The translations under genes were made by a program, and so were the position numbers. From positions 1 to 29,819 of the IMG/VR virus record IMGVR_UViG_3300044911_000285: a stretch of 29,819 nt of DNA. One strand, written 5' to 3'. Source of the DNA: a virus. This document shows, one piece after another, positions 10,973 through 19,587 of this stretch. Numbering within the stretch: position 1 is the first letter of the stretch; each line of letters starts with the position of its first letter. Below the pieces are notes generated by a model. The model had not been told where the DNA came from. It worked only from the letters and a program-made list of their open reading frames with translations, and did not search any database.

Positions 10973-11572
10973 ATGATTTCCCGCTCCGCTATCGACTTAA
11001 TATTACAGTTCGAGGTAGGAAATAAAAACTACTATAATAAGTTTTTGTTTAGGCCAAGTTATCGGGGAACGGGGATTATAATAGGAATTGGCTACGATCT
11101 AGGAAATACTTATAGGACGCAGTTAATAGACGATTGGGACGGGAATATTAACCCAAACTATTTTCCGCTATTATTTAGGGTTTTAGGCCTTAATGGTAAT
11201 CCGGCTAAACAAATGCTAACTTCGGACCTACTGAAAGTAACTATCCCTTATTTAAACGCTTACGAGGTCTTTATTAAGAGAACAATCCCTAGAGGGTATA
11301 ATATGGCTAAATTAATTTATCCACAATTAGACGGTTTAAACGCCAATACAAGGGGGGCTTTAGTTTCTTTAGTACTTAGTCGGGGAATTAGCTTAGAGGG
11401 CGAGAATCGGGAGGAAATGAGGGAAATAATAGATTTTACAAGGAATAAGGATTACGAGGGAATAGCAGACGCCTTAGAGCGATCAAAAAGACACTTCGAG
11501 GAGAAAGGCCTAGACGATCAAGTTAAGCGAAGGGAAGCGGAAGCGGACCTAGTTTTATCTAGCCTTTATTAA
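10973..11572 (+). CDS. Lysozyme-like peptidoglycan hydrolase
   Basis: A 199-residue protein matching, from memory, a phage/bacterial family of putative muramidases. It begins with a helix ending LILQFEVGNKNYY, where Glu14 is the likely catalytic acid. Then come GTGIIIGIGYDLGNTYR, a middle helical part, LVSLVLSRGISLEG, REEMREI, and VKRREAEADL near the end. I chose ATG 10973, one base after the M15 stop. The longer frame from 10850 would overlap the M15 gene by 122 bases and adds an unlikely basic N-terminus. Cutting both glycan strands (this gene) and peptide bridges (M15) would be complementary. Confidence 0.8.
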   Translation: MISRSAIDLILQFEVGNKNYYNKFLFRPSYRGTGIIIGIGYDLGNTYRTQLIDDWDGNINPNYFPLLFRVLGLNGNPAKQMLTSDLLKVTIPYLNAYEVFIKRTIPRGYNMAKLIYPQLDGLNANTRGALVSLVLSRGISLEGENREEMREIIDFTRNKDYEGIADALERSKRHFEEKGLDDQVKRREAEADLVLSSLY

Positions 11573-12305: not shown

Positions 12306-12482
12306 ATGACTATTACCGATATACTATTCGATAGTAATAAGACGGCCATAGAGCAATATATTACGATCCTAGAAATACAACTCTTAACAATGCCAAAATA
12401 CAGTGAGGTTACTAGGACTATTATAGCTTGCAAAGAGTTAGCCGAGGAAATCAATATTTTATATAAAATAAATTCTAATTAA
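12306..12482 (+). CDS. Small hypothetical helical protein
   Basis: A 58-residue frame from ATG 12306 to TAA 12480-12482, next to the following ATG at 12483. It is predicted to be mostly helical (KTAIEQYITILEIQLLTMP, then TIIACKELAEEINILY). It fills the gap between two better supported genes with no spare bases at its end, which supports it being real. No motif recognised. Confidence 0.5.
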   Translation: MTITDILFDSNKTAIEQYITILEIQLLTMPKYSEVTRTIIACKELAEEINILYKINSN

Positions 12483-12698
12483 ATGAAGGATCTAATAACG
12501 GTAAGGGTTTTACCGGAAACTAAAACCCAATTATTAACCGAAGCGGACCTAGGTAATACTACTTTATCTAGAGTAGCTTCTAAAATCTTAACTCAATACT
12601 ATGAGCAAAATAAAAACACTAAGCCAAGTAAACAAGCTAGAGCGTCTATTAAATCAAGCGATAGGACGAGAAGTAATACTAAAGGACGATCTAAATAG
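12483..12698 (+). CDS. Ribbon-helix-helix-like DNA-binding protein
   Basis: A 71-residue protein. Residues about 4-42 follow an Arc/CopG-type ribbon-helix-helix pattern: a strand ITVRVLPETKTQLL, then a helix-turn-helix ending TLSRVASKILTQYYEQ. The remaining basic tail (KPSKQARASIKSSDRTRS) is encoded where the next gene overlaps in the +1 frame. Ribbon-helix-helix dimers bind short palindromes, so this is the best candidate in the genome for a regulator acting on the early control region at 11649-11760. That link is inference. Confidence 0.6.
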   Translation: MKDLITVRVLPETKTQLLTEADLGNTTLSRVASKILTQYYEQNKNTKPSKQARASIKSSDRTRSNTKGRSK

Positions 12699-12879
12699 GT
12701 GGCGCGCTTCCGGTCCCTACGACATTAATCGATTATTTAGCCACGAAAACGATATACTTCTAAAAATTGCTAGAATAAACGCAATCCAACGTAGGATATT
12801 AGATTCCTTAATGGTAAAAATAAAGGACCTCTATTTAGAAAGCAATTTTAAGCTATTAGACAATGAAATACTTAATTAA
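12601..12879 (+). CDS. Hypothetical helical protein overlapping the RHH gene
   Basis: A 92-residue frame starting inside the preceding gene and overlapping it by 98 bases in the +1 frame. The sequence looks like a natural helical protein (KTLSQVNKLERLLNQAIG, HENDILLKIARINAIQRRIL). No motif recognised. Given the long overlap, either this gene or the tail of the RHH gene may be translated less than fully. A frameshifted RHH fusion is an alternative reading. Confidence 0.55.
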   Translation: MSKIKTLSQVNKLERLLNQAIGREVILKDDLNRWRASGPYDINRLFSHENDILLKIARINAIQRRILDSLMVKIKDLYLESNFKLLDNEILN

Positions 12880-13033
12880 AAACGAATACTTAATACAGTT
12901 AGAAAATGACGAACTTAAACAAAGAATCAAAGAAAAAGACGACGAAATCAAGCGACTTCGTCGGGAACTCGAAACTCAAAGAAGTAGTAGCGAGCCGGTA
13001 CAAGAACAAGATAAGGGAAGAGAAACTAGATAG
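12863..13033 (+). CDS. 56-residue coiled-coil peptide overlapping the DnaA-like gene
   Basis: From ATG 12863 to TAG 13031-13033. It encodes a short hydrophobic start (MKYLIKNEYLIQ) and a strong coiled coil (LENDELKQRIKEKDDEIKRL). It overlaps the preceding gene by 17 bases and the DnaA-like gene (from 12906) by 128 bases in another frame. The coiled-coil heptads look selected, while the same bases give a Lys/Ser-rich low-complexity stretch in the other frame, so the peptide may be the real product here and the DnaA-like protein may have a poorly conserved N-terminus. Confidence 0.45.
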   Translation: MKYLIKNEYLIQLENDELKQRIKEKDDEIKRLRRELETQRSSSEPVQEQDKGRETR

Positions 13034-13313
13034 GGCAGTTAAAATATTCGTAGACGTTTGTATTTATTACGACGTTACGATCCTACAAGTTAGGGCCAAG
13101 TATAGAGGCGTTACTGTGGTAAAGGTCCGACAAGTTTCTTGCTACGTTATCAAAGAGAAAACCGATTTAACATTCGGGGATATTTCTAATATCCTAGGAA
13201 TAGATCGTAGTACGGCTAGCCATAATTATTCCTTAATAAAGGACCTAATTAGTACTAAGCAAGGGGAAGAGTTAAAAAAAGATATTAACAATATTTTAAT
13301 AGTTACTATCTAG
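12906..13313 (+). CDS. DnaA domain IV-like DNA-binding protein
   Basis: A 135-residue protein. After a Lys/Ser-rich start (about residues 1-35), residues about 70-120 resemble the DNA-binding domain IV of the replication initiator DnaA: VRQVSCYVIKEKTDLTFGDI, then ILGIDRSTASHNYSLIKDL, like the DnaA signature where a helix-turn-helix ends in D-x-S/T-T-x-x-H. There is no AAA+ ATPase part. The protein could bind DnaA boxes to redirect host DnaA, or act in phage origin firing or regulation. It lies two genes from the recombination and replication block. Only the domain resemblance is seen. Confidence 0.7.
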   Translation: MTNLNKESKKKTTKSSDFVGNSKLKEVVASRYKNKIREEKLDRAVKIFVDVCIYYDVTILQVRAKYRGVTVVKVRQVSCYVIKEKTDLTFGDISNILGIDRSTASHNYSLIKDLISTKQGEELKKDINNILIVTI

Positions 13314-13357
13314 TTATTATCATTAAATTGCTATATATTAGCACAAAATTAAACGTT

Positions 13358-14089
13358 ATGAATCAAATCGAAAAGGTACAAAGTACTATTAGTTTTAGTA
13401 AGGAGCAACTAGAATTAATAAAATCGCAAATCGCTCCGGAGGCAACTAACGAGGAATTACAGTTATTTCTCTATACTGCTAAGAGGTCCGGCCTTGATCC
13501 ATTGGCCCGCCAAATCTACTGCATACATAGAAGCGTAAAACTTCCGAACGGACAGTACGGTAAGAAAATGACCGTCCAAACTTCGATAGACGGATTTCGC
13601 GTAATAGCTGAAAGGTCCGGTTTATATGGAGGACAAGGCGAACCAATCTTCGAGTATAGTCCCGAAGGCGAAGTAGTTTCTTGTAAAGTCTCAGTCTATA
13701 AGTTCAAAGGAGACGTTCGCTACGAAGCGGCCGTAGGTGTCGCGTTCTTTAGCGAGTACGCTCAAACGGACCGAAGCGGAAACCTAACCGGCTTATGGGC
13801 TAGTAAAAAGCGTATTATGCTACAAAAGGTTGCGGAAGCCTTGGCGCTCCGTAAAGCCTTTGCGCAAGACTTAAGCGGGCTTTATACTTCGGAGGAAATG
13901 CCGCCGGCGGAAGAGACAGTAACTTCTCCTTACATTAAGTCGCACGATAACCTAGAAGACATAGAATTAGCTATCGAGTTATGTAATAATAAAACCGAGT
14001 TAAAGTCTTTGTACGATCTAAATAAGGATATTGTAAACGATCTAGAATTGGTCCCTTTATTTACTGAACGCAAAAAATCCCTTAAATAA
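13358..14089 (+). CDS. recT: Bet/RecT-family single-strand annealing protein
   Basis: A 243-residue recombinase of the phage Bet/RecT family, which anneals complementary single strands. Visible signatures: RSGLDPLARQIYCIHR, KMTVQTSIDGFRVIAERSG, the conserved LWASKKRIMLQKVAEALALR, and KAFAQDLSGLYTSEEM. I chose ATG 13358, directly after AAACGTT. The frame from 13328 adds ten residues with no support. The C-terminal 45 residues are probably variable and may interact with partner proteins. I find no lambda Exo or YqaJ-type exonuclease in the genome, so it either uses a host nuclease or an unrecognised phage one. Confidence 0.92.
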   Translation: MNQIEKVQSTISFSKEQLELIKSQIAPEATNEELQLFLYTAKRSGLDPLARQIYCIHRSVKLPNGQYGKKMTVQTSIDGFRVIAERSGLYGGQGEPIFEYSPEGEVVSCKVSVYKFKGDVRYEAAVGVAFFSEYAQTDRSGNLTGLWASKKRIMLQKVAEALALRKAFAQDLSGLYTSEEMPPAEETVTSPYIKSHDNLEDIELAIELCNNKTELKSLYDLNKDIVNDLELVPLFTERKKSLK

Positions 14090-14508
14090 TGAACGAAATA
14101 ACCCTAGGCCAATTAGCGCCAACGAAAAGCGAAATAGATCAAATAACGGAAACTATTAGATTAGAACTAGAGGACGGTCGTATTAATCCGGAGTTTGTAG
14201 CCGTTAAGATAGCGGCTATCGAAAACTTCGCCAAGGCTTTAAGAGTAAAGTCCGAGGAGTATATTATCGACTTCTTAAGTAAATGTCCTAAAGGAACCTA
14301 CGATTATTTAGGGGCTAAGATTTCGCTAAAGGATTCGCAGACTTACGACTACGGAGCCTACTCCGAAAGGTGGGCCGAACTAGAAGCGCAGATCCAAATA
14401 TTAAAAGCCGAGCAAAAAGAAATAGAGGAAACCGGCAAGAAATTCGAGCGCGGAGTAATACCTCTAAAGTCTTATAAACAAACTTATTCATTAACTTTAA
14501 CTAAATAA
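14089..14508 (+). CDS. Hypothetical protein linked to the recombination genes
   Basis: A 139-residue protein whose ATG overlaps the recT stop codon by one base, indicating translational coupling. It is largely helical, with a coiled-coil part (residues about 97-122, WAELEAQIQILKAEQKEIE) and a C-terminus SYKQTYSLTLTK. Proteins of this shape are common beside RecT in Bacteroidota phages. No nuclease motif is visible, so I do not call it an exonuclease. It may be a partner of the annealing protein. Confidence 0.65.
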   Translation: MNEITLGQLAPTKSEIDQITETIRLELEDGRINPEFVAVKIAAIENFAKALRVKSEEYIIDFLSKCPKGTYDYLGAKISLKDSQTYDYGAYSERWAELEAQIQILKAEQKEIEETGKKFERGVIPLKSYKQTYSLTLTK

Positions 14509-14512
14509 TTTT

Positions 14513-14785
14513 ATGATCGTAATTAATGTAGAACGCGATAAAATAGCTTGGACTCCGGTCCAAACTAAGAACGGATTAAAACACTACGGAAACTTAGCTA
14601 TCGACCTATTAAAAGAAAAGGACGAGAAGGATAACACTCACTCCGTATGGAATAATCAATCCAAAGAGGACCGCGCAGAAAAAAAGAAAAAAGAGTACGT
14701 CGGTCGCGGTAAGGAAATTAAGTTTAATCCGGAGGCTAAAAAGGAATACAGTAATAACCAACAAATAGACGATTTACCCTTTTAA
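14513..14785 (+). CDS. Small SSB-like protein with DDLPF tail
   Basis: A 90-residue protein that starts with a beta strand (MIVINVERDKIAWT) and ends IDDLPF. An acidic tail ending in P-F is the hallmark of bacterial single-stranded DNA-binding proteins, whose tip docks partner enzymes. The middle (GLKHYGNLAIDLLKEKDEKD, then a KEDR and a GRGKEIKF segment) fits a small conserved phage family that may be a reduced OB fold. The protein is about half the usual SSB length. Together with recT it suggests a compact ssDNA handling module. The SSB call rests mainly on the tail and context. Confidence 0.65.
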   Translation: MIVINVERDKIAWTPVQTKNGLKHYGNLAIDLLKEKDEKDNTHSVWNNQSKEDRAEKKKKEYVGRGKEIKFNPEAKKEYSNNQQIDDLPF

Positions 14786-14797
14786 ATTAATAACGTT

Positions 14798-15112
14798 ATG
14801 AAGACTTTATTTGACGAACTAGAGACGGAGGATTTTAAATGGTTTAATGAGTATCATAAACAAAATCCGCAGATTTACGAGTACTTTAAGCGTTATACGT
14901 TTAAGTCAATCGAGCGAGGATTTAAGAACTTATCCGCAGAATTTATCTTTAATATTATTAGGTGGGAAACTCCCGTAAAAGCAAACGGAGACGACTTTAA
15001 GGTTAACAATAACGCCAAGCCGTTTTACTCCCGCTTATTTATGAAGGAGTACCCTACTTACGAAGGATTCTTTAGAAAACGAGCAAGTAAAGCGGACGAA
15101 GTTTATATTTAA
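14798..15112 (+). CDS. Conserved-type phage hypothetical protein
   Basis: A 104-residue protein with TAACGTT immediately before the ATG. It contains HKQNPQIYEYFKRYTF, then a segment FIFNIIRWET, and ends with NNNAKPFYSRLFMKEYP followed by GFFRKRASKADE. The pattern is reminiscent of a widespread small phage family found near replication or recombination genes. Its aromatic and basic residues could bind nucleic acid. The function is not established. Confidence 0.65.
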   Translation: MKTLFDELETEDFKWFNEYHKQNPQIYEYFKRYTFKSIERGFKNLSAEFIFNIIRWETPVKANGDDFKVNNNAKPFYSRLFMKEYPTYEGFFRKRASKADEVYI

Positions 15113-15117
15113 TTACT

Positions 15118-15125
15118 TATATTTG
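15118..15125 (+). promoter_or_regulatory. TAnnTTTG -7-like element before the replication gene
   Basis: TATATTTG lies right after the preceding stop, about 94 bases before the ATG at 15219. No TTG -33 element is present at normal distance. If it is used, the transcript would carry the structured leader at 15131-15208. Confidence 0.45.
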
Positions 15126-15130
15126 TTATT

Positions 15131-15208
15131 GAGTGTAGGATACTCTATTTAAAACTTATTGGCCTTGATACGAACCCCTAATCCTACTAGGGGGGAGTAG
15201 ATAGGCCA
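15131..15208 (+). promoter_or_regulatory. Structured leader before the replication gene
   Basis: TGGCC (15160-15164) can pair with GGCCA (15204-15208), enclosing a hairpin in which CCCCTA (15175-15180) pairs with TAGGGG (15188-15193). CTACT (15184-15188) can instead pair with AGTAG (15196-15200), which excludes part of the first hairpin. A small GAGT/ACTC stem lies at 15131-15145. There is no proper T-run after the inner hairpin. It could regulate translation or antitermination of the replication gene, or be part of an origin or small RNA. It matches no class I know. Confidence 0.5.
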
Positions 15209-15218
15209 CTTTTAATTT

Positions 15219-15863
15219 ATGTCAAAGGATCCCGCGTTTTTATTTTACCCTAACGATTATTTAGGGGGAACTATGGGTATGACCTTCGAAGAGAAGGGAG
15301 CCTATATCGATTTACTTATGCTACAATTTAACAGAGGTCATATGACCGAACATATGATAGGTCATACGGTCGGTCAACTATGGAAAAACATTAAGGACAA
15401 ATTTATCCAAGATTCTACCGGTTTATGGTATAACGTTCGACTAGACGAGGAAAAAAGTAAAAGAATGGCCTTTACACAGTCTAGAAGGAATAATATTAAA
15501 GGAGTTAACCAACATACGCTAGGTCATATGACCTCCCATATGGAAAATGTAAATGTAAATGTAAATAAAGATAAAAATATAAATATAGATTTTGACTTCT
15601 TTTGGAATGATTACGACAAAAAGGTAGGCGATAAGAGTAGGTTAAAAAGTAAGTGGAATAAATTATCCGATAATGACCGAAATCAAATAATGAATTATTT
15701 ACCTTTATACATAGAGGCAGTTCCCGACAAACAGTTCCGCAAAAACCCCGAAACATTTTTAAATAATAAATCTTGGCTAGATGAAATCGTTAAACGAACT
15801 AATCCCGACTACAATAAACAATCTTACGCCGAGCGTGAGTTTGCCAAACTTAAGAGTCTCTAA
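15219..15863 (+). CDS. DUF1376-type replication protein (lambda O-like initiator)
   Basis: A 214-residue protein. The N-terminus DPAFLFYPNDYLGGTMGMTF, followed by EEKGAYIDLLMLQFNRG, is typical of the DUF1376 / YdaU-type phage replication proteins, which carry a winged-helix DNA-binding domain. Residues about 108-120 (NVNVNVNKDKNIN) form a low-complexity linker. The C-terminal domain (FDFFWNDYDKKVGDKSRLKS to NPETFLNNKSWLDEI) is a separate helical unit found in such proteins. GHMT at 40-43 and 102-105 and GHTV at 48-51 are encoded by repeated DNA palindromes, suggesting that an origin lies within the gene, as in lambda O. It overlaps the next gene by 83 bases. Confidence 0.8.
   Translation: MSKDPAFLFYPNDYLGGTMGMTFEEKGAYIDLLMLQFNRGHMTEHMIGHTVGQLWKNIKDKFIQDSTGLWYNVRLDEEKSKRMAFTQSRRNNIKGVNQHTLGHMTSHMENVNVNVNKDKNINIDFDFFWNDYDKKVGDKSRLKSKWNKLSDNDRNQIMNYLPLYIEAVPDKQFRKNPETFLNNKSWLDEIVKRTNPDYNKQSYAEREFAKLKSL
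15335..15600. other. Putative replication origin inside the replication gene
   Basis: AGGTCATATGACCnnnCATATG occurs at 15335-15356 and 15521-15542. The core GGTCATATGACC is a perfect 12-base palindrome in both. A degenerate copy, AGGTCATACGGTC, begins at 15359. All three lie in the same codon phase. The second copy is followed directly by an AT-rich tract (about 15543-15592) with ATGTAA repeated, like a DNA-unwinding element. Iterons followed by AT-rich DNA within the initiator gene is the arrangement of lambda ori. No experiment supports it here. Confidence 0.55.
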
Positions 15864-16515
15864 CGCTCTAGAAAAACACGAATTAAAAGTAATAGACGCG
15901 CTCCAAACTATGGGCGTAGGACGTTGCGCTAGGATCGAAATAAAAGAACACTTAAAAACTTGTCTCCATTTTAGCGGGTGTACTATACCAACTGCGGAAG
16001 AGTTCGAGTTTATGGTAACTTTTGTAATAGATAACTATAAACGTTTTTGCCTAAAAGAGTTAGGTTGCGCCTTTGAAATGTACGCCCTAAATAAGCTAGA
16101 CGTAGACAAAGCGATTAAGTTTACGCCTAAGTTTGTAGGGGAGGTTTTAAGCGCATACGAAAAAATCGCTATTAAGGTCCGTAGGAGCGTCGTAGTCGAG
16201 TTACCGGAGCCAAAGCCTAGAGAAGTATCGGAAGAGGAAATATTAGCCTTAAATCAAGAATTTTGGGCCGACTCTAAAAGTAAGGACTTTAGGTTCCTAA
16301 ATGCTAAGGCCTTCGATATACTATGGAAACGAAAAGAGTTAAATATTACGATCCTAACAAAAGAAAAGGCAGACTCGATAAAAAGTAAGGTCCTAGCGTT
16401 TTACCGTACTAAACTACAAAATAAGGAAGACGAAGAGCGATTATCTAGCGAAGACTTTGTTAGGGATCAGTGCAAGAAATATACTTTAATGTTATTTTAT
16501 AATAATCAACTATAA
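15781..16515 (+). CDS. Putative replication partner protein (position of lambda P)
   Basis: A 244-residue protein with its ATG inside the replication gene (83-base overlap, different frame). It is mostly helical and without a Walker motif. The region FEMYALNKLDVDKAIKFTPK followed by FVGEVLSAYEKIA resembles conserved proteins found after phage replication initiators. The C-terminal half is charged (KPREVSEEEILALNQEFW). In lambda the gene after O is P, the helicase loader. Position alone suggests a similar role, loading the host helicase, since this genome has no helicase, primase or polymerase that I can recognise. No residue-level proof. Confidence 0.6.
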   Translation: MKSLNELIPTTINNLTPSVSLPNLRVSNALEKHELKVIDALQTMGVGRCARIEIKEHLKTCLHFSGCTIPTAEEFEFMVTFVIDNYKRFCLKELGCAFEMYALNKLDVDKAIKFTPKFVGEVLSAYEKIAIKVRRSVVVELPEPKPREVSEEEILALNQEFWADSKSKDFRFLNAKAFDILWKRKELNITILTKEKADSIKSKVLAFYRTKLQNKEDEERLSSEDFVRDQCKKYTLMLFYNNQL

Positions 16516-16518
16516 CAA

Positions 16519-16635
16519 ATGAACTTAAATAAATATATTTTAAAACGATATAACTATTCTAGTTATAAACTTAGAGGTTGGTTTGGTAGAAAACTTTATC
16601 TTTTAGGTAGAAATTTAAAAACTTATAAACAATGA
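16519..16635 (+). CDS. Small basic peptide
   Basis: A 38-residue frame, three bases after the preceding stop, very rich in Lys, Arg and Tyr (NKYILKRYNYSSYKLRGWFG). Its TGA stop overlaps the next small ATG, and TGA is otherwise rarely used as a stop here. It could bind nucleic acid or simply be a fortuitous frame. No family recognised. Confidence 0.4.
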   Translation: MNLNKYILKRYNYSSYKLRGWFGRKLYLLGRNLKTYKQ

Positions 16636-16769
16636 TAAAAGCGACAGTTATTTTTATCCTACAAATGATCTACTTTCTCCTTATTTCGGTCCCCTTAGCT
16701 TGCTTACTACTAATTACCTTTAACCTATACTTTGAGGCCAAAAGAGTAATTTATAAAAATAAATCCTAA
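16632..16769 (+). CDS. Small single-pass membrane protein
   Basis: A 45-residue frame whose ATG overlaps the preceding TGA (ATGA). One long hydrophobic stretch, residues about 5-33 (TVIFILQMIYFLLISVPLAC and onward), is followed by a basic tail (EAKRVIYKNKS), which suggests the C-terminus faces the cytoplasm. It lies in the early-to-middle region between the replication and NinG genes. Function unknown. Confidence 0.5.
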   Translation: MIKATVIFILQMIYFLLISVPLACLLLITFNLYFEAKRVIYKNKS

Positions 16770-16774
16770 ATTTG
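16767..16774 (+). promoter_or_regulatory. TAnnTTTG -7-like element before ninG
   Basis: TAAATTTG overlaps the preceding stop and lies four bases before the ATG of the ninG-like gene. No -33 element is visible. As at 1096, use of this site would give a nearly leaderless message. Confidence 0.3.
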
Positions 16775-16778
16775 GTTA

Positions 16779-17153
16779 ATGACATTAAAGCCGTTACCCA
16801 AAGTACTAGAGCAAACTCAAAAGGTTTTTAACGCTTATGTTCGTAAAAGAGACGAAGACGAAACTTGTATTTCTTGCGGATCTAACTCCGCTAATCAAGC
16901 CGGACACTATTTCCCCGTTAAAGGATTCTCTTCTCTTAGATACAACGAACTAAACGTTAATATTCAATGCGCTTCTTGCAATATGTATAAATACGGCAAC
17001 CAAGCTATGTACCGAATCGGACTCGTAAGAAAAATAGGAGAAGACGCAGTAAAGAACCTAGAACGTCAAGCCGTAAACGATAGAGTAAAGAAATGGACGA
17101 GGGCCGAACTGTATGAAATAATAAATAAATATAAAAATGGCGAAACTAAGTAA
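16779..17153 (+). CDS. ninG: NinG/Rap-like HNH recombination nuclease
   Basis: A 124-residue protein of the lambda NinG (Rap) type, a nuclease that processes branched recombination intermediates. Signatures: VFNAYVRKRDE, the zinc pair Cys30 and Cys33 in CISCGS, AGHYFPVKGF with His43, RYNELNVNIQCASCN with Cys64 and Cys67, and KYGNQAMYRIGL. NinG proteins usually run longer at the N-terminus, so this is a short version. It pairs logically with the annealing protein RecT: one anneals strands and the other resolves joints before packaging. Confidence 0.85.
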   Translation: MTLKPLPKVLEQTQKVFNAYVRKRDEDETCISCGSNSANQAGHYFPVKGFSSLRYNELNVNIQCASCNMYKYGNQAMYRIGLVRKIGEDAVKNLERQAVNDRVKKWTRAELYEIINKYKNGETK

Positions 17154-17256
17154 CTCCGGTAAAGTAACCTTCGGCCGCAGAAAAGGCGGTAAGGCAACTA
17201 AAACTAAAGGACCTAAAGACAAACCGACTAAAGCCTACAAAGGCCAAGGCAAATAA
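17137..17256 (+). CDS. 39-residue basic peptide of a Bacteroidota phage type
   Basis: The frame starts inside the end of ninG (17-base overlap) and encodes a very basic, Gly-rich peptide: SGKVTFGRRKGGKATKTKG, ending TKAYKGQGK. Similar short peptides with an F-G-[KR]-R-x-x-G core and a terminal GQG-R/K recur, as far as I recall, near terminase or NinG genes in Bacteroidota phages. The composition suggests nucleic acid or ribosome binding. Function unknown. Confidence 0.6.
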   Translation: MAKLSNSGKVTFGRRKGGKATKTKGPKDKPTKAYKGQGK

Positions 17257-17263
17257 AAATATT

Positions 17264-17470
17264 ATGACTGCAAAAGAGAAAGCGGTAGAGTTAATAGACT
17301 TTTTTACATTTAATTGTAAAGAGTGCGATAATGCTAAAATATCTGCATTAATAGCAGTAAATCAAATATTAGAATCATTAGTATATAAGAAATTAAGTGA
17401 TTCCCCATATACGACATTACAAGCAAGACAATTTTATATAGAAGTTAAACAAGAGATAAAAACCCTATGA
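17264..17470 (+). CDS. Small conserved-type phage hypothetical protein
   Basis: A 68-residue protein with the pattern KEKAVELIDFFTF, AKISALIAVNQILE and FYIEVKQEIKTL. This pattern of two helices ending in an EVK-EI motif is common in small early proteins of Bacteroidota phages. The gene overlaps the next by four bases (ATGA), indicating coupled translation with the ParB-like gene. Its role is unknown. Confidence 0.65.
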   Translation: MTAKEKAVELIDFFTFNCKECDNAKISALIAVNQILESLVYKKLSDSPYTTLQARQFYIEVKQEIKTL

Positions 17471-17898
17471 GAATAGAAGAAATACGACCTAACCCGTCTA
17501 ACCCCCGTTATATAACGGACGATAAGTTTAAGCAACTAGTAGAGTCTATTAGATCCTTCCCCCAAATGCTAGAATTACGTCCCCTAGTAATCGACGAGAA
17601 TAATATAGTTCTCGGCGGGAATATGCGTCTAAGGGCTTGCATAGAAGCCGGCCTTTTAGACGTCCCCGTTAAGCAAGTAATGAACTTTACTAAAGAACAA
17701 AAAGAAGAGTTTATTATTAAAGATAATCTAGCCTTCGGCGCTTGGGATTGGGACACGCTAGCAAACGAATGGTCCGTTTCCGCCCTCGTAGAATGGGGAT
17801 TAGATTTGCCTACCTTTGACAAAGAAGTACCGGAACCAAAAGACGAGACTAACGTTAAGGAACCGATAACTTGCCCGAACTGCGGGTTTAATCTTTAA
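17467..17898 (+). CDS. ParB-like domain protein beside terminase
   Basis: A 143-residue protein with a ParB/sulfiredoxin-type N-terminal domain: EEIRPNPSNPR, then RPLVIDENNIVLGGNMRLRA, where the G-G-N-x-R motif (residues 50-54) corresponds to the ParB nucleotide-binding box. The C-terminus carries one zinc-knuckle half (CPNCGF, residues 136-141). Such small ParB-like proteins are often found just before phage terminase genes and may assist packaging or DNA handling. The typical ParB helix-turn-helix partition part is absent, so a partition role is unlikely. Confidence 0.8.
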   Translation: MRIEEIRPNPSNPRYITDDKFKQLVESIRSFPQMLELRPLVIDENNIVLGGNMRLRACIEAGLLDVPVKQVMNFTKEQKEEFIIKDNLAFGAWDWDTLANEWSVSALVEWGLDLPTFDKEVPEPKDETNVKEPITCPNCGFNL

Positions 17899-17903
17899 CT
17901 TTG
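17871..17903 (+). promoter_or_regulatory. Promoter for the terminase genes
   Basis: TTG (17871-17873) is followed after 22 bases by TAACTTTG (17896-17903), a fair match to the Bacteroidota sigma-A promoter. The ATG of the small terminase follows 15 bases later. It probably drives the packaging and head genes. Confidence 0.6.
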
Positions 17904-17918
17904 CATAAATCTACTAAA

Positions 17919-18269
17919 ATGGACATACAAAAAAGGGCAATGATAGAAGCGCTAGAGAAAAGCCTAGGGATAGTTACTACGGCCGCTAAAATGGTCGGAA
18001 TTTGTCGATCTACTCACTATCTTTGGATAAGTAACGACGAGGAATATAAACTAGAAGTAGAGGCAGTAGCGGACCTTACTTTAGACTTTGTAGAAAGTAA
18101 ACTACATAAACAAATAGAAAAGGGCGAAGTTTCGTCTACTATCTTTTACCTAAAGACTAAAGGTAAGAAACGAGGTTACATAGAGAAACAAGAAATAGAA
18201 CACTCCGGAAATATGCAAGTAACTTGGAACGAAGAGAAGACTTACGAAAGTAAAACGAGTTCCTTATAA
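17919..18269 (+). CDS. terS: Terminase small subunit
   Basis: A 116-residue protein. Residues about 10-40 form a helix-turn-helix (LEKSLGIVTTAAKMVGICRS, followed by HYLW) that would recognise the packaging start site. The rest is helical (FVESKLHKQIEKGEVSSTIF) with the motif KTKGKKRGYIEKQEIEHSG, which is typical of phage small terminases. I chose ATG 17919, which fits the promoter just upstream. The frame could start at an upstream TTG at 17901, but that lies inside the -7 box. It directly precedes the large subunit. Confidence 0.85.
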   Translation: MDIQKRAMIEALEKSLGIVTTAAKMVGICRSTHYLWISNDEEYKLEVEAVADLTLDFVESKLHKQIEKGEVSSTIFYLKTKGKKRGYIEKQEIEHSGNMQVTWNEEKTYESKTSSL

Positions 18270-18276
18270 TCCAAAT

Positions 18277-19587
18277 ATGAAGCTAACAGTAAAGCAGACA
18301 ATCGCTTTAGACTATTTAGAGGACAATATAACTAACGAAGTATTATTCGGCGGAGGAGCCGGAGGCGGTAAAACTGCGCTAGGGTGTTATTTCCAAATTA
18401 AACGCAGATTAAAATATCCGGAGACTAGAGGACTAATAGGTCGAGCGGTCCTAAAGACACTTAAAGAAACTACCTTAGTTTCCTTTTTTCAAGTAGCTAA
18501 AATACAAGGATTAGTAGCTAATCAACACTACCGTTATAACGGACAATCAAATCAAATAGAGTTCTTTAATGGTTCCGTAATCTTACTAAAGGATCTATTC
18601 CAATACCCTAGCGATCCAAACTTTGATGAGTTAGGATCGTTGGAAATAACCGACTCTTTTATAGACGAGGCTAATCAAGTAACCGATAAGGCAAAGAATA
18701 TCGTAAAGTCTAGGATTCGTTTTAGGCTAGACGATTATAACCTAATCCCGAAACAGTTATACACTTGTAACCCCGCTAAGAATTGGACCTACTCGGAGTT
18801 TTATAAGCCGGACCGAGACAACGAACTAGAACCAAATAAAAAGTTTATTCAATCACTAGTAGACGATAATCCCTTTATTTCTAAGCACTATAAACAAAAC
18901 TTATTAACTTTAGACAAAGAAAGTAAGGAGCGTTTACTGTTTGGTAATTGGGAGTATTTATCCGATCCTTCAAGCCTTATAGACTATGATAAGATTATTA
19001 ATAGCTTTAGTAACGATTTTGTTAGTAGCGGCGATAAGTATATTACTTGCGACGTTGCTCGTTTTGGTAGCGATAGTACTGTTATCGGTGTATGGAGTGG
19101 CTACCGCGTTAAGGTTTATAGGTACTCTAAGAAGTCGATAGTAGAAGTAGCGCAGATCGTTAGACAATTAATGGCCGAGAACTCGGTCCCTATTTCTAAC
19201 GTACTACTAGACGAAGACGGAGTAGGCGGGGGAGCGGTAGATATATTAAATTGCCGAGGATTTGTTAATAACAGTTCTCCGCTAGAAAACCCGATAAGTA
19301 GAACAAAGGATAACTTCGACAACTTAAAGAGCCAATGTTATTTTAAGTTAGCCGAGAAGATTAATAGCGACGAAATATATATAGATTGCCCTTCTAACTT
19401 CAAACAAATGATCGTAGAAGAGTTAGAGCAAATAAAGCAAAAGTCAGTAGATAACGACGCTAAAAAAGGGATTATCCCAAAAGATAAAGTAAAGCAACTT
19501 ATAGGAAGGTCCCCCGATTTCTCGGATATGCTAGCTATGAGAACTTGGTTCGAGTTTAAGCCGAAGTTTGTCGTCGGCGTTTGGTAA
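18277..19587 (+). CDS. terL: Terminase large subunit
   Basis: A 436-residue packaging motor. The ATPase half shows a Walker A-type GGGAGGGKT (residues 25-33) and a Walker B ITDSFIDEA with Asp130-Glu131. The C-terminal nuclease half shows YITCDVARFGSD with Asp259, and LLDEDGVGGGAVD with acidic residues near 312-314, which bind metal for cutting concatemers. Length and order are normal for the family. It follows the small subunit by seven bases and precedes the portal, as usual in HK97-type phages. Whether packaging is headful or cos cannot be read from the sequence. Confidence 0.95.
   Translation: MKLTVKQTIALDYLEDNITNEVLFGGGAGGGKTALGCYFQIKRRLKYPETRGLIGRAVLKTLKETTLVSFFQVAKIQGLVANQHYRYNGQSNQIEFFNGSVILLKDLFQYPSDPNFDELGSLEITDSFIDEANQVTDKAKNIVKSRIRFRLDDYNLIPKQLYTCNPAKNWTYSEFYKPDRDNELEPNKKFIQSLVDDNPFISKHYKQNLLTLDKESKERLLFGNWEYLSDPSSLIDYDKIINSFSNDFVSSGDKYITCDVARFGSDSTVIGVWSGYRVKVYRYSKKSIVEVAQIVRQLMAENSVPISNVLLDEDGVGGGAVDILNCRGFVNNSSPLENPISRTKDNFDNLKSQCYFKLAEKINSDEIYIDCPSNFKQMIVEELEQIKQKSVDNDAKKGIIPKDKVKQLIGRSPDFSDMLAMRTWFEFKPKFVVGVW

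Follow-up and report, generated by a model that had tools for sequence, protein, structure and literature searches.

The window, the 29,819-nucleotide stretch of viral DNA analysed here, carries a replication initiator gene together with a leader RNA, two arrays of short repeats, an AT-rich tract and an overlapping downstream gene (Table 1). An AlphaFold2 model of the initiator protein has a winged-helix N-domain, a disordered linker at about residues 101–120 and a helical C-domain, and its N-terminal part matches PHROG 9327 ('primosomal protein') and its C-terminal part PHROG 270 ('replication initiation protein'). The match to DUF1376 (PF07120) has an E value of 3e-5 at 24.7 bits, below the Pfam gathering cutoff of 30.1, and 46 of 49 relatives match the same family at E 0.01 or better, so the window protein is likely a divergent DUF1376 relative. 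None of its PHROG matches at E 0.01 is O-like, PHROG 678 (O-like) is matched by 7 of 49 family members, and Pfam RepA_N gave no match for the window protein. A PDB fold search returned no strong match, the similarity to 4PTA (Z 3.5) and to DnaD-N 2v79 (Z 3.9) being weak, and the family profile run against solved structures yielded only weak RNA polymerase subunit matches at E 0.01 or worse, which we took as chance.

Table 1. Features of the initiator locus (window coordinates)
Feature	Coordinates	Strand	Evidence or remarks
Conserved structured leader RNA, ending at the initiator start codon	15129..15221	+	Covariation, cmsearch
Replication initiator gene, 214 aa	15219..15863	+	PHROG, DUF1376 match, AlphaFold2 model
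Exchangeable cassette: DNA-binding domain, array A and almost the whole of array B	15259..15535	+	Replaced in L022, L023, L028, L036
Array A, four 12-bp units inside helix-turn-helix codons	15336..15383	+	Conserved placement across three word classes
Array B, three 12-bp units in the linker	15510..15545	+	
AT-rich tract, proposed unwinding region	15543..15590	+	Encodes ENVNVNVNKDKNINID
C-domain, aa 121–214	15579..15860	+	tblastn, PHROG; common to vibriophage initiators with other N-domains
Overlapping downstream gene, 244 aa	15781..16515	+	Position of the helicase or loader gene in relatives

The downstream gene has no convincing Pfam match and falls in a PHROG of unknown function; in relatives, the gene in this position encodes DnaB, TOPRIM-DnaB or a DnaC-like loader, and in Psychrobacter phage Y8A replication protein P. 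Elsewhere in the window, positions 12906–13313 encode an orphan protein with DnaA domain IV (Bac_DnaA_C, E 1e-9), to which an annotated gene of Cellulophaga phage phi19:1 (gp042) is similar. DnaA boxes were also considered and set aside, as the window holds a single TTATCCACA, at 11317, the number expected by chance. The relatives used below are metagenomic contigs from IMG/VR (80 loci for the window protein and 79 for a class II relative), and a prophage scan of genomes yielded two MAG contigs.

The units of array A are, in order, GGTCATATGACC, GAACATATGATA, GGTCATACGGTC and GGTCAACTATGG, arranged head-to-tail and in register, and they code for residues 40–55 within the helix-turn-helix. Array B reads CAACATACGCTA, GGTCATATGACC, TCCCATATGGAA and passes directly into AATGTAAATGTAAATG; it codes for residues 98–109. 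The original prediction had described a perfect palindrome within two 22-nucleotide repeats, together with a degenerate copy at 15360, and had likened the arrangement to iterons in the linker of an initiator gene. The palindrome GGTCATATGACC is indeed present at both 15336–15347 and 15522–15533, and the degenerate copy, GGTCATACGGTC, is real. A 22-nucleotide pair can be found at 15335 and 15521 (86%), but the true unit is 12 bp, and only array B is in the linker, array A being inside winged-helix codons. The copies in the window share a codon phase, as had been noted, and the GHMT peptide is common to them but follows from the DNA. All four copies of CATATG in the 29.8-kb window lie inside the two arrays. 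At two or fewer mismatches, chance alone would give 0.35 copies of the GGTCATATGACC 12-mer per window, and two matches were reached in 4 of 100 shuffles; a pair of identical palindromic 12-mers no more than 400 bp apart arose in 2 of 300 Markov simulations. The window by itself is therefore suggestive, and it is the comparative data that settle the question of the arrays: chance palindromes, unlikely from the shuffles and simulations, are excluded by the relatives.

The AT-rich tract adjoins array B as described at the outset, and it is AT-richer than its peptide requires. In the window, GC3 is 0 in the tract versus 0.39 in the remainder of the gene; across 48 genes, the tract following the iterons has a third-position GC of 4.6% versus 33.6% elsewhere, and a total GC of 18.7% versus 26.1% in synonymous shuffles. 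An inflection of GC skew near 15.4 kb, which had been proposed as a further sign of an origin, is absent, and the cumulative skew, which rises almost throughout, says nothing either way. In the cultured, DUF1376-annotated Cellulophaga phage phi19:1, gp031 contains AAACCGAAACA-like repeats followed by an AT-rich tract.

If the repeats act as DNA, the palindromes should be conserved at synonymous sites, and this is seen in codon choice, in low synonymous diversity and in out-of-frame copies. Every HM dipeptide in the first (80-locus) set uses CAT (353 of 353), versus 154 CAT and 105 CAC among the other His codons there. Among 17 diverged class I representatives, the mean synonymous diversity at G40, H41 and H45 is 0.04 versus 0.50 at 49 other conserved columns, and the fourth unit of array A is just as frozen at G52 and Q53. 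The clade L048–L082, which retains the CATATG core alone without the full 12-mer, carries extra CATATG copies out of frame, where they are read as SYE or PYE (35 observed, about 12 expected from synonymous shuffling). The density of CATATG is 7.70/kb in the gene versus 0.138/kb in the flanks, and CATATG-N6-CATATG is confined to two clusters about 170–220 bp apart in the records of 16 of 16 relatives. The distance between cores is 12 bp for 39 of the 41 spacings counted in class I and for 60 of the 67 in class III; for class II, where the counting pattern overlapped itself, no spacing is claimed. No homologue with the same protein and no palindromes was found, class I homologues carrying CATATG arrays. 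Together, the CAT-only HM codons, the frozen synonymous sites and the out-of-frame copies show that the word is selected as DNA, and not as peptide.

The position of array A is occupied by different words in different relatives, and each word recurs in the linker. The class II word, AACCTAATGGTT, encodes KTIRL at site A, where it lies in the opposite orientation, and KPNG or KPSG in the linker; the class III word, ATGCCRCGGCAT, encodes NATAD at site A and DATASTTAYATAM in the linker. With 54 representatives and 200 synonymous shuffles per class, the 12-mers common to sites A and B number 557 versus 261 ± 26 in the shuffles for class I, 287 versus 48 ± 12 for class II, and 187 versus 22 ± 7 for class III, with all shuffles exceeded in each class. 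In class I the repeats have peptide sequence in common, and their similarity therefore comes in part from the protein, as the null of 261 out of 557 reflects. When site A is compared with the linker, matches of at least 11/12 occur in 46–84% of pairs within a class and in 1–3% of pairs across classes, the class labels in the cross-class pairing having drawn partly on the same peptides. In some class II members the two sites have moved to a new word in step, for example to GCATATGC in L120 and to AACCATATG in L117. On a tree of the N-domain with site A removed, the motif class changes 5 times with a minimum of 2, a count to which rough labelling contributed (L117, which has AACCATATGG, had been counted as class I) and on which we do not lean.

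At site A of L107, L116, L122 and L133 no shared word was found. In L107 (2001–2975) and L122 (74–796) the N-domain is fused to an HNH endonuclease domain at the position of the iteron linker, and the shared words are absent. The linker of L116 (gene 2001–2903) has tandem, telomere-like 12-mer repeats of CCCAACCCTTAA instead of the class II word.

Co-variation of the words with the DNA-binding domain, the other comparative test of the original prediction, is apparent from the word classes and most directly from exchanges between near-isogenic phages. Four relatives (L022, L023, L028 and L036) are mostly 92–97% identical to the window in DNA on both sides of the gene, with parts of the L022 and L023 flanks at 88.7–90%, and for L028 and L036 the match extends from 12403 to 18709 with small gaps. 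Their initiators have N-domains that are about 46% identical to that of the window protein, and C-domains that are 94–98% identical. The exchange leaves the AT tract and the C-domain in place, and in this first lineage also the upstream sequence. The same exchange is seen in a second C-domain lineage, between L010–L018 and L087–L089. Where two genes have a common C-region and differing N-regions, the word changes along with the domain in 91 of 91 pairs, with a junction near gene position 318–329 on the class I side; the pairs are not independent, but both types occur in each of two C-lineages. These alignments show that the DNA-binding domain moves between phages in a single block with its words, and they constitute the strongest evidence that we have.

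In the leader RNA, a small hairpin is accompanied by a larger stem that encloses a second hairpin, and the loops of these two hairpins pair with each other as a 7-bp kissing loop. In 29 sequences, on which the structure was itself drawn by eye, 97.1% of cells are paired and 15 of 24 pairs are changed on both sides; no shuffle reached this number of two-sided changes, and slid controls were at most 51% paired. Part of the search for these sequences used a pattern in which 4 of the 7 loop pairs are fixed, such that the remaining pairs alone are evidence, and one free pair of the kissing loop covaries (C-G in 20, A-U in 9). The window leader scores 95.4 bits with cmsearch, and no Rfam family matches it. 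The covariance model also finds the leader before initiator genes that the pattern missed (for example in L037, L041 and L073). This leader is found in front of initiators with at least seven types of N-domain, several of them with DNA repeats beyond synonymous expectation, and is located at L010:2912–3003, L016:2912–3003, L176:3267–3358 and others; the pattern has at least 119 matches in viral contigs, some of which are chance. It also precedes an ATPase-like gene (L024:1662–1754) and a methylase-like gene (L034:2267–2359), both read by eye, and is therefore not exclusive to initiators; it could be an element of early genes in general. A U-run comes after the last stem of the leader, as would suit an attenuator or translation control.

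The origin of phage lambda lies in the middle of gene O, where four 18-bp iterons in the region encoding the linker are followed by a 38-bp AT tract, and the O protein has an N-terminal DNA-binding domain and a C-terminal domain that binds the helicase loader P, with the linker between them (PMC3349717, PMC7466680, PMC6022878). The window family is alike in having DNA-selected repeats within the coding sequence of the initiator that its protein would recognize, an AT-rich tract directly adjoining the iterons that would melt, and an N-domain inherited together with its iterons and separately from the C-domain. In relatives a P-like loader or helicase gene lies downstream; the window's own gene in that position has no helicase or loader function assigned to it. 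It differs from lambda in its 12-bp palindromic units at a 12-bp period, its DUF1376-type N-domain, its array in the helix-turn-helix and its shared RNA leader. To our knowledge, lambda O has no array in its DNA-binding codons. In view of the lambda-equal layout and the helicase, loader or P genes next in relatives, we consider it very likely that the gene is a lambda-O-like replication initiator that contains its own origin, as originally proposed; both comparative tests support this arrangement. The winged-helix N-domain would coat the linker array, perhaps as a dimer per palindromic unit, the AT-rich tract beside array B would melt, and the C-domain would recruit a helicase or helicase loader. 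Array A is probably an auxiliary binding site, and we can guess at a role in extra nucleation, in looping to array B, or in control of the gene's own transcription.

The main rival explanation is that the arrays are autoregulatory operators, bound by the gene's own protein for control of the gene or operon, and that the true origin is elsewhere. Such operators would give the same binding and co-variation, self-repression is common among initiators, and array A lies well away from the AT tract; but operators are normally at the promoter, and these arrays sit about 120–330 bp inside the gene. The joining of array B to a tract that is AT-rich beyond the needs of its peptide, the equivalence of the layout to that of lambda, and the helicase genes that follow in relatives also speak against operators, and we regard this explanation as unlikely. 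It is considerably less probable still that the repeats are recombination sites promoting exchange of N-terminal modules: the exchange is real, with a junction where array B ends, and the phage has a gene for a RecT-like protein (13328–14089), but swapped partners carry different words, which thus cannot be the shared homology, and the crossovers are located in flanking conserved sequence. A repeated peptide motif (GHMT, HM) without function at the DNA level, which would account for the common codon phase in the window and for part of the class I shared 12-mers, is contradicted by the synonymous-site tests, including codon choice and out-of-frame copies, and by the different peptides encoded by one word in class II, and we give it almost no credence.

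Related arrangements are found in other initiators. Several plasmids with initiators of the RepA_N type have their origin inside rep. The RepA_N initiators, of staphylococcal plasmids and of the PLE satellites (RepA), have a winged-helix N-terminal domain that binds semi-palindromic direct repeats and a host-specific C-terminal domain, and in PLE the iterons are in a noncoding region outside the gene (PMC7145576), whereas those of the window are inside it; the association of a winged helix with repeats is common to both, with weak fold similarity for the window protein. The C-domain of the window protein is similar to that of vibriophage Lin1244_N/DUF4373 initiators, and the C-domain of the DUF1376-type relative L131 to that of the Psychrobacter phage Y8A initiator. 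The vibriophage and Y8A genes directly precede a DnaB-like helicase or replication protein P, and several of their linkers show repeats (GTGACAN3TGTCAC palindromes in Y8A), although the N-domain families and the words are different and no array was seen among their helix-turn-helix codons.

A broader reading, which we put forward tentatively and as somewhat short of probable, is that of a plug-in origin, in which a constant RNA leader and a constant melting tract plus C-domain would flank an exchangeable cassette of domain and words, with array A as a functional second binding array. The reader (the helix-turn-helix) would then be partly written in the word that it reads, and the phages are probably those of Bacteroidota. 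Exchange of replication specificity between lambdoid phages (phi80, 82, P22 type-specific relatives) is classical. An origin within the initiator gene and the exchange of type specificity are thus already known from lambdoid phages; lambda-phi80 and lambda-82 hybrids are attributed to Furth and Yates (1978), as cited in PMC6022878. New here are the DUF1376-type domain, the 12-bp iterons, the second array inside helix-turn-helix codons, the swappable cassettes and the shared RNA leader. The open-access literature searched gave no description of the origin of this DUF1376-type family, an absence that is weak evidence.

Each of these genes holds a DNA-binding domain and, we infer, its target. The metagenomic copies therefore let change in initiator and origin be watched together, as a set for protein–site co-evolution and as paired data for decoding winged-helix recognition, and the natural swaps are precise chimeras for testing. 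The shared leader, absent from Rfam, is a candidate for a regulatory RNA with a link to phage replication. Should array A prove functional, the same DNA would be constrained both as helix-turn-helix codons and as a binding site, a tight overlapping constraint.
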